From contig JABDEZ010000011.1 of assembly GCA_013286835.1 (NCBI GenBank), forward strand, positions 4,573 to 43,041: 38,469 nt of DNA, written 5' to 3'. Below are positions 5,001-15,131 of this stretch, piece by piece; the stretch's first letter is position 1, and each line of letters begins with the position of its first letter. The notes under the pieces are model-generated. The model had not been told where the DNA came from. It made no database searches and was given only the letters and a program-made list of their open reading frames with translations. The position numbers and the translations under genes were made by a program. The DNA is from Bacteroidota bacterium. GTDB lineage: Bacteria > Bacteroidota > Bacteroidia > Chitinophagales > Chitinophagaceae.

Positions 5001-5171
5001 AGAGTCATTATTTGTAACGATAGAGAACTTAGTTTACAAGACGTACTAAAATTAAAATACGTTTGTGTATAAGTGGAAAATTACGACTGTTTGCTTTTAT
5101 TAACAAAATATTCTTGTTTATCCACAAAGTAGTGGGAGCATTAGAAATAATAGACGGAAAGCTTTATAAAC

Positions 5172-5214
5172 AAATAAAGTGTGAAGGCGGGCTAGCACCA
5201 ATCACACTTTATTT
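5172..5214 (-). terminator. Hairpin downstream of apaG
   Basis: 13-bp inverted repeat AAATAAAGTGTGA...TCACACTTTATTT. Confidence 0.55.
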
Positions 5215-5231
5215 ATTTAAAACATGAGTGA

Positions 5232-6216: not shown

Positions 6217-8085
6217 CTACCTACCCATGTACACCATAAGTATTTGCACATCGCTGGGGTTTACCCCACTTATGCGACTTGCCTGGCCTAAGGTACGTGG
6301 TTTTATCTTTGCCAGCTTCTGTCGCGCTTCGGTAGATATGGCGTGCAACTTTTCATAATTGAAGGTTTCCGGTATCATAAGGCTTTCCAACCCTTCCATC
6401 TTTTTCACCAATTCCTTTTCTTTTTCAATATACACATCATACTTCACCTGTATCTCGGCCTGCTCTACCACCAACATATCCGGTTCATCCATTTCAGCAG
6501 CAAGTGTCGGTATGGCGGCGGCCATCTCCTTAATACCTATGCCTGGCCGCAGTAACAATTTTATTGCCCTGGTGCGCTCTACCAGTGCCGATGAATTGTT
6601 TTCCTGCAAAAACCCGTTGGCTTGTGCAGGCTCCACAGAGAAAGAAGCGAGTTTATTTTTCAGGTTTTCAACCTTTCCGCGTTTGGCTTGCATCAATGCC
6701 AGTCTTTCATCGCTGGCAAGCCCAATGCTGTGGCCCAGTTCTGTAAGGCGCAGGTCTGCATTATCTTGCCTGAGCAATGTTCTGAACTCAGCACGAGAGG
6801 TGAACATACGGTATGGTTCGTCTGTGCCTTTATTTATAAGGTCGTCTATGAGTACTCCTATGTAAGCTTCATTTCTGCCCAGGCTTACGGGTTCCAGTTC
6901 TTTAGCTTTGCGATGCGCGTTTATACCGGCCATTAGCCCCTGGCAAGCAGCTTCTTCATAACCTGTTGTGCCATTTATTTGTCCGGCAAAGAAAAGGTTA
7001 TTCACCAATTTGGTTTCAAGCGTATAGGTAAGCTGTGTTGGTGGAAAGTAATCGTATTCAATAGCATAACCGGGACGGAAGAACTTACATTTTTCAAAAC
7101 CGGGTACACTGCTTAATGCTTTGTATTGTACCTCTTCGGGCAACGACGTGCTGAAACCGTTTACGTATATCTCCACTGTATTCCAACCTTCAGGCTCTAC
7201 AAATAGCTGGTGACGGTCTTTCTCTGCAAAACGGGTAACCTTATCTTCTATGCTGGGGCAATACCGGGGACCACTTCCTTTGATCCTGCCCTGGTACATG
7301 GGCGATTTCTCAAACCCTGTCTTTAGTATATCGTGTACTTCCTGGCTGGTATAGGTTATCCAGCAGCAGCGTTGTTGTTTAGGTTGTATTCGTTGTATAG
7401 GCAGGTAAGAAAAGCCTACTATCTCTTCATCACCATCCTGTACTTCCATTTTGGTATAATCGAGACTCCGGCCATCTATACGCGGGGGCGTGCCTGTTTT
7501 GAGGCGGGCGCTATCAAAACCCAGACTAACCAGTTGTTCGGTAATACCAGTTGCCCCTTTCTCCCCCATTCTGCCACCTCCAAATTGCTTTTCGCCAATG
7601 TGTATTACCCCGTTTAGAAACGTACCATTGGTAAGCACCACCGATTTAGCGTATATACTATGCCCCATTCCTGTTACTACACCTTCAATTGTTCCACGTG
7701 AAACAATTAGTCCGTTAACGGTATCTTGCCAGAAATCTATGTTAGGTGTCTGTTCCAGCATTTCCCTCCAGGTGTTAGCAAACAGCACACGATCGTTTTG
7801 GGTACGAGGGCTCCACATTCCAGGACCCTTACTCTTGTTCAGCATCCTGAACTGTATCATGCTCTTATCGCTCACTATACCACTATAACCCCCAAGCGCA
7901 TCTATTTCTCTTACAATCTGACCTTTAGCTATACCACCCATTGCTGGGTTGCAACTCATTTGTGCAATGGTCTGCATATTCATAGTTACGAGCAGTACCT
8001 TACTGCCCATGTTTGCAGCAGCAGCAGCAGCTTCGCAGCCAGCATGGCCAGCGCCAACTACAATTACATCGTACTTTAAAAACAT
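6217..8085 (-). CDS. mnmG: tRNA uridine-5-carboxymethylaminomethyl(34) synthesis enzyme MnmG (GidA)
   Basis: 622 aa; YDVIVVGAGHAGCEAAAAAANMGSKVLLVTMNMQTIAQMSCNPAMGGIAKGQIVREIDALGG is a diagnostic GidA/MnmG N-terminus. Confidence 0.98.
   Translation of the reverse strand: MFLKYDVIVVGAGHAGCEAAAAAANMGSKVLLVTMNMQTIAQMSCNPAMGGIAKGQIVREIDALGGYSGIVSDKSMIQFRMLNKSKGPGMWSPRTQNDRVLFANTWREMLEQTPNIDFWQDTVNGLIVSRGTIEGVVTGMGHSIYAKSVVLTNGTFLNGVIHIGEKQFGGGRMGEKGATGITEQLVSLGFDSARLKTGTPPRIDGRSLDYTKMEVQDGDEEIVGFSYLPIQRIQPKQQRCCWITYTSQEVHDILKTGFEKSPMYQGRIKGSGPRYCPSIEDKVTRFAEKDRHQLFVEPEGWNTVEIYVNGFSTSLPEEVQYKALSSVPGFEKCKFFRPGYAIEYDYFPPTQLTYTLETKLVNNLFFAGQINGTTGYEEAACQGLMAGINAHRKAKELEPVSLGRNEAYIGVLIDDLINKGTDEPYRMFTSRAEFRTLLRQDNADLRLTELGHSIGLASDERLALMQAKRGKVENLKNKLASFSVEPAQANGFLQENNSSALVERTRAIKLLLRPGIGIKEMAAAIPTLAAEMDEPDMLVVEQAEIQVKYDVYIEKEKELVKKMEGLESLMIPETFNYEKLHAISTEARQKLAKIKPRTLGQASRISGVNPSDVQILMVYMGR
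7690..7705. promoter_or_regulatory. parS-like ParB/Spo0J binding site (intragenic in mnmG)
   Basis: TGTTCCACGTGAAACA, exact match to the parS consensus TGTTNCACGTGAAACA. Confidence 0.85.
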
Positions 8086-8231: not shown

Positions 8232-8837
8232 GTGAAAAGGTTTGTCATCACTTCATTTTGTTTACTCTCAATGCATGCACCAGCAGCATTAGCACAAACA
8301 ACATGGCATAAACCTAAGAAGCTATTAACAATTGGGTTCACAACAGGTGTAAATACATCTAAGACCAATTACTTCAAATCAATACCTTGTTCTACTTGCT
8401 ATACCAATGGCTTATATCTCCGCAGGTATATCAACAGGCATCTTTCGATGGAAAGTGGAATACAATTCTCTGCAGATCATTTTACTACTCCTGTAGTTAG
8501 GGTAACACCAGGTTACTATATATCTCGTACCCAACCTATTGCAACTAATATCCCATTTGCTATTCGTTACTATATGGGCCATGCTGATAAAAAACTGGTG
8601 CCTTCTATTGGTGCCGGCTGTTATTATAGCTTTGGATATAGAGTAATAAATAAAACAGACGGTTTACAACAAACGCCATCATCAAATCCTGCTTTTATTC
8701 CTTTTTATATGATGCAGGGCTTATCTTATAAGATAAGTACAAAGATAGAGTTGAATGAAACCATTCATTTTACTCCAAAAGACGAGAACCACTGCACTCA
8801 GCTTGGCATTGATTTAGGTATAGGATACCATTTATAA
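8232..8837 (+). CDS. Putative outer-membrane beta-barrel protein
   Basis: 201 aa from a GTG start; signal peptide MKRFVITSFCLLSMHAPAALAQ; alternating aromatic strands ending IGYHL. No specific family recognised. Confidence 0.7.
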   Translation: MKRFVITSFCLLSMHAPAALAQTTWHKPKKLLTIGFTTGVNTSKTNYFKSIPCSTCYTNGLYLRRYINRHLSMESGIQFSADHFTTPVVRVTPGYYISRTQPIATNIPFAIRYYMGHADKKLVPSIGAGCYYSFGYRVINKTDGLQQTPSSNPAFIPFYMMQGLSYKISTKIELNETIHFTPKDENHCTQLGIDLGIGYHL

Positions 8838-8853
8838 TGTTCCACGTGAAACA
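8838..8853. promoter_or_regulatory. parS-like ParB/Spo0J binding site (intergenic)
   Basis: TGTTCCACGTGAAACA, identical to the site at 7690-7705. Confidence 0.88.
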
Positions 8854-11265: not shown

Positions 11266-12270
11266 CTATACCAGCCCGAACTGCCTGCTCAATTTTAACA
11301 TACGATCTATTGGCTTTTTAGCTGCCAGCCGTATGTTTTCATCCATTTTTATTTCCGGCAATTCATATTTCATTGCCAAATAGATCTTTTCAAGTGTATT
11401 AAGTTTCATATGTGGACAGTCATTGCACGCACATGCATTATCTGGTGGTGCAGCTATAAAAGTTTTATTGGGTGCATTTTTTTGCATTTGGTGTAAAATA
11501 CCGGTTTCTGTTGCTACAATATAAGTACTTGCAGTATCTGCCTGGCTATACTTTAATATTTGCGTTGTAGAACCTATAAAATCAGCAATGCGTAAAATGG
11601 GCTCTTCACATTCAGGATGTGCTAATAATTTAGCTTCAGGATGACGCAGTTTTAGCCTGGTTATTTTCTCGAGCGAAAATAATTCATGCACCATACATGC
11701 ACCATTCCACAACAACATACTTCTTCCTGTTTTCTTGTTAATGTACCCACCCAGATTTTTATCTGGTGCGAAAATTATCTTCTGATCCACTGGTAAGCTT
11801 TCTACTATTTGCTGTGCATTAGATGAGGTGCAAATAATATCGCTTAATGCTTTAATGCCAGATGAACAGTTGATGTATGATATGACAAGATGATCTGGAT
11901 GTTTATCTTTAAATGCTTTGAAGAGCGGAGGAGGACAACTATCGCTTAATGAGCATCCTGCTTTAAGGTCTGGCAGAATAACCTTTTTTGAAGGGTTTAA
12001 TATTTTAGCTGTTTCAGCCATAAAGTGAACGCCAGCAAAAACAATCATATCGGCCTCTGTACCAGCAGCGTTTTGTGCAAGCCCCAAACTATCACCAATA
12101 TAGTCTGCAATATCTTGTATATCTGGTTCCTGGTAGTAATGTGCAAGTATAACTGCATTCTTCTCTTTCTTCAATTTACGAATCTCCTCAAACAAATCGA
12201 GAGAAGGATCAACGAGAACATCAACGAAACCATTTGTTTCAACCTGGGCGAGAGCGTTATCCACAGTCAT
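11266..12270 (-). CDS. nadA: Quinolinate synthase NadA
   Basis: 334 aa; [39 protein letters not shown]...[21 protein letters not shown] and [12 protein letters not shown]. Confidence 0.97.
12257..12265 (+). promoter_or_regulatory. DnaA box (TTATCCACA)
   Basis: Exact TTATCCACA overlapping the nadA N-terminus. Confidence 0.6.
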
Positions 12271-12442
12271 AATAACTATAGTTAAAGTTTTTTAAAAAAA
12301 TATTATTATTAATTAGGGCTGTTAATATGGGGATTAAAATAAGTTTCCCACATTGCAAATTAGCACTTTAAAGGTTTACGGAAAGTTATTAATACTCTAT
12401 ACACATATCAAACAGCTTTAAACAGCGGTTCTAACATGAAAA

Positions 12443-12451
12443 TGTGGATAG
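12443..12451 (-). promoter_or_regulatory. Near-consensus DnaA box (CTATCCACA on the minus strand)
   Basis: TGTGGATAG on the + strand; one mismatch to TTATCCACA. Confidence 0.4.
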
Positions 12452-12580
12452 TGGATTAAAAAAGCTGTGAGTAATTAGTTGGATGTTGATATCGTAGCAG
12501 GTGGTGTAAAAAGTCTAGTTCAAAAAGGGTAAAAATATTTTAAGCCGGAAACAAAAATCTTATCCTTTTTTAAAGTGCCA

Positions 12581-12599
12581 TTATACACAGTTATCCACA
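12581..12599 (+). promoter_or_regulatory. Tandem DnaA boxes TTATACACA-g-TTATCCACA
   Basis: Two matches to TTWTNCACA, 10 bp start to start. Confidence 0.65.
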
Positions 12600-12675
12600 C
12601 GCTATACATACGCTAAGTGTATAACGCAATGGTTATTAAAAACTTGCAAATATTAATAGGATAATTAATCGCTGA

Positions 12676-12906
12676 GAAATACTCGTTATATATAGTGTAA
12701 TAAAAAAAGTACCACGAAATCAGGACCACATATTATATGGTATAGAAGAACCGATTAGGGTTAAGTTAAAAACGGACTATTGTTGCCGTATATATAATGG
12801 TACAGATAAGGATGTTGCAGAAAATATCAAATATGGAGTATTAAATGGGAGGATAGTACCGAAATATTTAATAACAAATAAACTATTTGATACAATTAGT
12901 TTATAA
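12676..12906 (+). other. ATG-less open frame (77 codons including stop), possible gene remnant or non-canonical ORF
   Basis: Hand translation: EILVIYSVIKKVPRNQDHILYGIEEPIRVKLKTDYCCRIYNGTDKDVAENIKYGVLNGRIVPKYLITNKLFDTISL*. No in-frame ATG, GTG or TTG found. Confidence 0.3.
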
Positions 12907-12959
12907 TCTCAATTTTTCGTATAAATTTGCCGTCCTTACAATAAATATAAACAACCGTT

Positions 12960-15131
12960 ATGGCTGTAATTCAAAAAATAAGAAATAAGTACGGTAAAGT
13001 GGCGGCAGGTGTCATAGTGGTGGCGCTGCTCGGCTTTATACTCATGGATGCTGCGAGTGGCAGGTTTGGCGATTTGTTCGGTCACAACACTAGTGTTGTA
13101 AAGATCAATGGTGACAAAATAGATACCAGGGAATATTCGCTGAGAATGAAAGAGTTTGAAGTACTCTACACTATGTATAGTAAAACACATACGCTTGATG
13201 ATGCTACACGTGCCCAAATGAATGAGGAAGCCCTGAAGCTAATGATCTATGAAAAACTATCGGGCGAACAGTGCGATAAATTAGGATTGACAACTACTAA
13301 GGAAGAAGAACGCGAAATATTGTACAGCCCTAATGCTGACCCTATGGTTCAGCAATTTCAACTGCAAGGCCAGCCTATTTTTGCTAATCCGGAAACCGGC
13401 CAGTTCGATCCTCAGCGTGTACAGGCTTTTGAAAAACAAGCTGATCAATATGACCCTACAGGTAAAGCACGTGAACAATGGGAAACTGTAAAATCTTATG
13501 TGCTGCACAACAACAGGATCACAAAATTCAACTACCTGTTCATTAATGGTGTGCACACACCAAAATTTGTACTTGACCGCCAGCAAGCAGATGCAAATAC
13601 TATGACTAACATCAGTTATGTAAAAGTGCCGCTTACTGCTATTGCAGATAAAGATGTACCTGTAACCGATGATGACATGCAGGCTTACATGAAAAAATAT
13701 CCTGCAAGATTTAAAATAGATGAGCCTACACGTACTATAGAATATGTATCATTCGATATCAAACCATCTCACGAGGATACCGACCGTGCTGTAACAGCTC
13801 TGGCACAAGTAAAAAATGATTTCACTGCTGCAACAGATAATGAAAGCATAGTGAACCGTAACTCTGAAGATAAATATGCACCTGTATGGGTGAACAAAAA
13901 AGCTGCTACTAAAGGTTACGAAGATTCTATAGTAAATATGCCTGCAGGTGCCGTGTTCGGTCCGTATTTTATGAACAACATGTACCGCCTTACTAAAGTT
14001 ATAGAAAAGAAAGACCAGCCCGATTCTGTAAAATGCCGCCACATACTGGTGCGTACAAAAGCACAGGGTAAAGATGTACTGCCTGATAGTATAGCCAAGC
14101 AACGTGTAGATAGCATTGCTGAAGCTGTAAAAGCAGGCGCTGATTTTAAAGCACTGGCTCTTAAATATTCAGACGATGATGGCAGCAAAAAACAAGGGGG
14201 TGAATATTCCTTCCAGCTGGCACAAAAAACAGGATTATCTAAAGAATTTGGTGATTTTATTTTTGATGGCAAAACCGGCGAACATAAAATAGTAAAAGTA
14301 GAAAACGATAATTATAGCGGTTACCACTATATAGAGATACTGGATCAGAAAAATATAGCTCCGGCTGTTAAAATAGCATCGATAGACAAACCACTTTATG
14401 CAGGCGATAATACTGTAAACGCAGCCTACGCAAAAGCAACTGAATTTGCAGGTAATAATACCAACGCAAAAGCATTTGATGACATTGCTAAAAAACAAGA
14501 CCTGAACAAAAGGGTTGGTGATAATATAAAGATCCACGATTTCCAGGTACAAGGTTTAGGCCCTGCCCGCGAAATTGTAAGGTGGACCTATGAAGCTAAG
14601 CCAGGTGATATTTCTACTGTGTTCACTTTATCAGATGGCCGTTATGTGGTGGCTAAACTGCTGAGCGTACAAGATAAAGGATTGATGGCGATAACAGACC
14701 AGATACGCCCTCAGTTAGAGTCTATTGTAAGAAATGATAAAAAAGCTACCCAGTTGCTAGCAAAATATAAAGGCGTAACCAGCCTTCAGGCTGCGGCTCA
14801 AACCTCAGGCCAACAAGTAATGCATACAGATTCAGCAAGCCTTTCTGCTACTTACCTACCCAACCTGGGTTATGTACCTTCGGTTTTAGGTTATGCATTT
14901 TTCTCTGGTCTGCAACTGAATGCTGTATCGCCAGCTATAAAATCAGAAGATGGTGTTTATATAATAAGCCCTACCCAAAGATGGACAAAACCAGCTAGCG
15001 CAGCAGCTGCCCAGATGGAAATGCAACAAAGAGGCCAGATGGAAATGCAAACCCGCAACATGGTGGGCCAGCAATTGCAAGATATATTGATCAACAAAGC
15101 CAAGGTGGTTTATACCCCGGCCAATATGTAA
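12960..15131 (+). CDS. ppiD: SurA N-terminal/PpiD-like peptidylprolyl isomerase (membrane-anchored, parvulin domain)
   Basis: 723 aa; N-terminal TM segment (MAVIQKIRNKYGKVAAGVIVVALLGFILMDA); parvulin motif SVKCRHILVRTKAQG...ADFKALALKYSDDDGSKKQGGEY. Confidence 0.88.
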   Translation: MAVIQKIRNKYGKVAAGVIVVALLGFILMDAASGRFGDLFGHNTSVVKINGDKIDTREYSLRMKEFEVLYTMYSKTHTLDDATRAQMNEEALKLMIYEKLSGEQCDKLGLTTTKEEEREILYSPNADPMVQQFQLQGQPIFANPETGQFDPQRVQAFEKQADQYDPTGKAREQWETVKSYVLHNNRITKFNYLFINGVHTPKFVLDRQQADANTMTNISYVKVPLTAIADKDVPVTDDDMQAYMKKYPARFKIDEPTRTIEYVSFDIKPSHEDTDRAVTALAQVKNDFTAATDNESIVNRNSEDKYAPVWVNKKAATKGYEDSIVNMPAGAVFGPYFMNNMYRLTKVIEKKDQPDSVKCRHILVRTKAQGKDVLPDSIAKQRVDSIAEAVKAGADFKALALKYSDDDGSKKQGGEYSFQLAQKTGLSKEFGDFIFDGKTGEHKIVKVENDNYSGYHYIEILDQKNIAPAVKIASIDKPLYAGDNTVNAAYAKATEFAGNNTNAKAFDDIAKKQDLNKRVGDNIKIHDFQVQGLGPAREIVRWTYEAKPGDISTVFTLSDGRYVVAKLLSVQDKGLMAITDQIRPQLESIVRNDKKATQLLAKYKGVTSLQAAAQTSGQQVMHTDSASLSATYLPNLGYVPSVLGYAFFSGLQLNAVSPAIKSEDGVYIISPTQRWTKPASAAAAQMEMQQRGQMEMQTRNMVGQQLQDILINKAKVVYTPANM

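Follow-up and report, generated by a model that had tools for sequence, protein, structure and literature searches.

Two identical copies of the 16-mer TGTTCCACGTGAAACA in the window (the whole 38,469-nucleotide stretch of DNA analysed) are best explained as the chromosomal parS centromere, of the standard ParABS type, of a Chitinophagaceae-type bacterium, with a probability of roughly 0.94. This reading draws on the sequences themselves, their clustering and conservation, the constraint on synonymous codons at one of them, the nearby candidate origin and the canonical ParAB of a genome of the same genus. By analogy with established ParABS biology, ParB encoded elsewhere on the chromosome would bind and nucleate on the two sites, load CTP, close as a clamp and slide over the mnmG–nadA–oriC neighbourhood. 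ParA, probably with SMC, would act on the ParB complex and so separate newly copied origins. One of the two copies is intergenic, and the other lies in the mnmG reading frame, where selection on DNA maintains it.

Two parS sites at the mnmG locus

The two sites and the genes around them are as follows.

8838–8853, + strand: parS site 1, TGTTCCACGTGAAACA, intergenic, abutting the TAA stop codon (8835–8837) of the ORF at 8232–8837
7690–7705, + strand: parS site 2, TGTTCCACGTGAAACA, within mnmG codons 127–132
6217–8085, − strand: mnmG (gidA), tRNA uridine modification enzyme (Pfam GIDA, 1.5e-161), host of site 2
8232–8837, + strand: ORF for a possible small outer-membrane barrel protein, with a signal-like N terminus

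Both copies match the 16-bp parS consensus TGTTNCACGTGAAACA exactly and are spaced 1,148 bp apart. Site 1 sits 768 bp upstream of the mnmG start, and site 2 reads ATT GTT TCA CGT GGA ACA on the mnmG coding strand, giving the peptide IVSRGT. The initial annotation had called a perfect parS at 8838–8853 directly after the stop codon of the barrel-protein gene, and it was right on both counts; the second exact copy, inside mnmG, was absent from it. Its judgement that such a match is very unlikely by chance also holds, the expected number of exact matches on both strands at window composition being 9.6e-5 for the window and 0.0067 for the 2.67-Mb assembly. A Pfam search with the ORF at 8232–8837 gave no match. 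In a genome of the same genus, the counterpart of site 1 also abuts the stop codon of that ORF, at −766 from the mnmG start.

The assembly is a metagenome-assembled genome (MAG) of 152 contigs and 2.67 Mb that is 69% complete, and site positions were assessed by assembly-wide pattern searches together with sampled 20-kb stretches. Beyond 8838–8853 and 7690–7705, the assembly-wide search returned no further site at 0 or 1 mismatch, and the three 2-mismatch sites elsewhere in the assembly are on a par with the counts for a reversed-pattern control. The motif is thus not scattered: within the scope of this 69%-complete MAG, the only two sites with at most one mismatch lie 1.1 kb apart. A search of the window's mnmG promoter for a third site, at up to 4 mismatches, found none.

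A candidate origin beside mnmG

An AT-rich intergenic region between divergent nadA and ppiD genes, rich in DnaA boxes, is the candidate origin.

11266–12270, − strand: nadA (Pfam NadA, 1.4e-123), left border of the candidate oriC
12257–12265, + strand: DnaA box TTATCCACA, 5′ end of nadA
12271–12959, no strand assigned: candidate oriC, AT-rich divergent nadA/ppiD intergenic region
12581–12589, + strand: DnaA box TTATACACA, within the candidate oriC
12591–12599, + strand: DnaA box TTATCCACA, within the candidate oriC
12960–15131, + strand: gene for a ppiD-like SurA_N/rotamase chaperone, right border of the candidate oriC

The region begins 3.4 kb from site 1 and ends 4.1 kb from it, in agreement with the earlier placement of a candidate origin about 3.4–3.7 kb away. 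In many relatives nadA and ppiD are also found near mnmG, with the nadA/ppiD region 1–10 kb from that gene. Across 47 loci that carry the divergent pair, 47 DnaA boxes fall in 32 kb of intergenic sequence against 50 in 900 kb elsewhere, an enrichment in density of about 26-fold; a reversed DnaA-box control over the same loci gave 0 intergenic and 15 other matches. Two more DnaA boxes (TGTGTATAA and TTATCCACA) lie at 5064–5126 of the window, in the intergenic region 5001–5231 on the opposite side of mnmG.

GC skew was compared with the position of mnmG in complete genomes. In G023 the cumulative minimum falls at ~636–641 kb and mnmG at 631–633 kb (about 3–7 kb apart), with the opposite switch near 2.1–2.3 Mb. 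In the closest complete relative, Chitinophagaceae bacterium LGM1 (G041), mnmG at 153.5 kb is inside a broad minimum, a position compatible with a nearby origin. The sampled skew of a third complete genome, G006, is weak, and its minimum is about 0.65–0.9 Mb from mnmG. A Hi-C study of gut bacteria that included a Bacteroides likewise placed the origin by parS clusters and GC skew, and noted that dnaA and the origin can lie apart (PMC10197239).

parS is anchored on mnmG in relatives

Sites with at most one mismatch are present in 36 of the 41 genomes searched (the organism's own and 40 relatives, 35 of which have them), and those of the relatives are usually clustered on a single contig. We took 120 mnmG loci, from 80 GTDB species genomes, 39 relatives and the window, with four genomes represented twice, and scanned them with TGTTYCACGTGRAACA at up to 2 mismatches, using the reversed pattern as a control. 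The scan gave 266 parS-like sites, 229 of them between −1000 and +500 of the mnmG start: 162 from −500 to the start, 43 between −1000 and −500, and 24 within the opening 500 bp of the gene. The control gave 1 match over all 120 loci. Both the number of sites per locus (1 to 9) and their positions vary, while proximity to the locus is retained. The earlier expectation that parS would cluster near oriC is therefore borne out by the pair 1.1 kb apart, the DnaA-box-rich region nearby and the recurrence of the same locus in relatives.

Of 119 genomes sampled evenly across the phylum, 87 contain an exact parS. Manual comparison of listings for 43 of the genomes with an exact site placed it in or beside mnmG in 40, that is, inside the gene or within ~160 bp of it (~770 bp for the intergenic copy of the window). 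The exceptions among these 43 are G133, where the site is 25 kb from mnmG, and G088 and G125, where the two are on different contigs. Many of the phylum genomes listed have sites flanking both ends of mnmG. The parS cluster is thus anchored on mnmG across the order and in most of the phylum sample.

An alternative is that the sites are chiefly ParB-dependent operators that couple expression of mnmG, or of a neighbour, to the chromosome cycle, with a centromere role that is secondary or absent. Sites do lie in the 5′ region of mnmG or inside it across the order, and at both ends of the gene in many phylum genomes, and ParB is reported to affect promoters near parS in Pseudomonas aeruginosa (PMC5521831). 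Yet the mnmG promoter of the window has no site, one copy being 768 bp upstream and the other intragenic, and what is kept among relatives is proximity to the locus rather than number or position. Since the locus is accounted for by its closeness to the origin, regulation of mnmG by the sites, though possible, need not be invoked, and we regard operators as the chief function as very unlikely. A less exclusive proposal is that ParB loading at mnmG would matter for mnmG too, and that parS for this reason stayed with or inside the gene across Bacteroidota while parAB moved. Such an arrangement would couple the chromosome cycle to tRNA modification or translation, and in one clade the bond would be strong enough for parS to have been written into mnmG and the protein rewritten; we hold this to be improbable, if less so than the operator function just described.

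Variant sites in relatives

Some Chitinophagaceae without a canonical parS near mnmG carry asymmetric variants (such as TGTTTCACGGGACACT, TGTTCCACGAGTCACA or TGTTCCACGAATCACA) at the same places, usually paired, in which one half-site is canonical and the other altered. In L104, L116, L136 and L141 they lie near −713 and −682 relative to the start of mnmG, in L124 at −117 and −66, in L105 at −811 and −715 and in L110 at −799 and −737; L138 and L147 have them too. In several genomes these variant pairs account for most or all of the matches across the genome. They may be diverged parS sites, and the inverted pairs could also be hairpins. A change of ParB specificity behind the variants was considered and rejected, there being no consistent change in the HTH, one genome excepted.

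Up to three copies of another variant, TGTTCCACGGGGAACA or its complement, lie 5′ of mnmG in L181 (−208, −134 and −60), L085, L139 and L140; in the genome of L181 (G037, 93% completeness) ParB was sought and not found. Locus L137 has CACATG-centred sites, GGTTCCACATGGAACC and CGTTCCACATGGAACC, at −282 and −198. In ParB L290 of the same genome, SVSLAKML replaces SMGHARAL, which alters an otherwise conserved G201-type residue. The L137 sites and ParB L290 are possibly a co-changed ParB–parS pair.

The copy inside mnmG is under selection at the DNA level

At the homologous mnmG codons 127–132, 24 of the 120 loci carry parS with 0 or 1 mismatch, at offset 380 (or 377 in a single sequence whose start is shorter), and the remaining loci have at least 6 mismatches at that position. 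A phylum genome outside the 120 loci, G080, also has the internal site at offset 380. All 16 positions are kept in carriers, including the TGTT/AACA arms. The peptide encoded by carriers is [IL]VSR[GE]T, whereas non-carriers have variable peptides such as LVKDGR. Within the carrier peptide V, S, R and T are invariant, and the sole residue that varies within the site is G/E131 (GGA or GAA), which falls on the degenerate R position of parS.

Synonymous codon use separates the demands of DNA from those of protein. Among the 24 carriers, a conserved residue with a four- or six-fold codon occurs in 270 columns, whose mean pairwise synonymous identity is 0.31. Only four of these columns are synonymously invariant, namely codons 128, 129, 130 and 131, so that synonymous freezing is confined to the part of the gene that encodes parS. 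The frozen codons occur only within parS and point to selection acting on the DNA rather than on the protein, and away from recent ancestry. The invariance might otherwise be put down to protein constraint on VSRGT or to recent gene exchange, considering that V, S, R and T do not vary in carriers and that most carriers belong to one clade. This explanation is extremely improbable: the peptide of non-carriers is different and variable there, synonymous codons are free elsewhere in mnmG and frozen here only, and a residue change (G/E) is permitted exactly at the degenerate parS position. The mnmG copy is clearly under DNA-level selection, which fixes both codons and residues in a variable stretch of MnmG.

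On a quick tree from which the parS stretch was left out, most carriers group in one clade and the carrier label needs three changes. A constraint that groups every carrier with L145, which presumably lost the site, stands up to the test and gives a better likelihood (p-AU 0.98). We therefore prefer a single gain with one loss, as the simplest history, over the independent gains implied by those three changes. Two carriers of the codon 127–132 site, L106 and L143, are without upstream sites; they have a second exact parS in mnmG near its 3′ end, at offset 1595, with the peptide VPRETI.

ParB and ParA

In this 69%-complete MAG a family search did not find a canonical ParB, and a search with the parAB DNA of the same-genus genome, run without a positive control, gave no match. 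A 554-aa ParB-like match in the MAG (G000 contig C26:22682–22939; L035 169–1833) was rejected as the segregation ParB, since in it a ParB_N-like domain is joined to an N6/N4 DNA methylase. The check for parA and parB that had been proposed with the initial annotation thus came out empty in the 69%-complete MAG itself. A canonical ParB of about 300–350 aa is present in 24 of 24 near-complete genomes of the family, and in the same-genus genome ParA (273 aa) adjoins ParB (311 aa, with ParB_N, HTH_ParB and ParB_C). The latter has arginine and glycine at the equivalents of R173 and G201, the residues that set preference for parS rather than NBS (PMC7383237). In the two complete genomes G023 and G041, ParB is 0.74 Mb and 0.86 Mb from parS, respectively, which indicates that linkage of parS to parAB has been lost in the group while linkage to mnmG has been kept.

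That the 16-mer is a chance match or a non-ParB element, for example the site of a CACGTG-type regulator, as its CACGTG palindrome core and the ParB missing from a 69%-complete assembly might suggest, can hardly be credited against an expectation of 0.0067 per genome, the retention of 16/16 positions with both arms in carriers, ParB in every near-complete family genome and the proximity of the origin.

Comparison with known systems

The sites resemble chromosomal parS of ParABS (Soj/Spo0J) in being a 16-bp palindrome, TGTTYCACGTGRAACA, in few clustered copies adjacent to the origin, with an HTH_ParB-domain ParB in relatives. The textbook arrangement is gidA–gidB–parA–parB; unlike it, parAB here lies away from parS and gidA, by the distances given above for the two complete relatives. 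The 16-bp palindrome is shared with the NBS of Noc, a nucleoid occlusion protein of the same superfamily. NBS differs at two specificity bases, however, and the site here is of parS type; together with R173 and G201 in the same-genus ParB, instead of the Q and R of Noc (PMC7383237), this sets it apart from NBS. An intragenic location near oriC has a precedent in P. aeruginosa, where 9 of 10 parS sites are predicted within coding sequences (PMC4368675). In contrast to that species, here one codon position of one gene holds the site across many genera, with synonymous freezing measured and the peptide rewritten.

This is a well-known kind of element, and parS sites in coding regions are already on record. 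What may be new to specialists is the long-term freezing of parS in mnmG, at a cost to both codon choice and the protein sequence, together with the strong linkage of parS to mnmG across the phylum sample despite distant parAB. A search of the open-access literature, with the survey by Livny et al. 2007 outside its scope, returned no report of a parS inside mnmG or of linkage to that gene in Bacteroidota; we do not claim priority.

For this uncultured lineage of Bacteroidota, sequence alone has been enough to locate the centromere and the origin, and the simple rule of looking beside mnmG held for 40 of the 43 listed phylum genomes that have an exact site. The copy within mnmG offers a clean example from nature of a centromere that overlaps a protein code, in which DNA-level selection dictates codons and residues, and the effect of parS position becomes testable by synonymous mutation in cultivated relatives.
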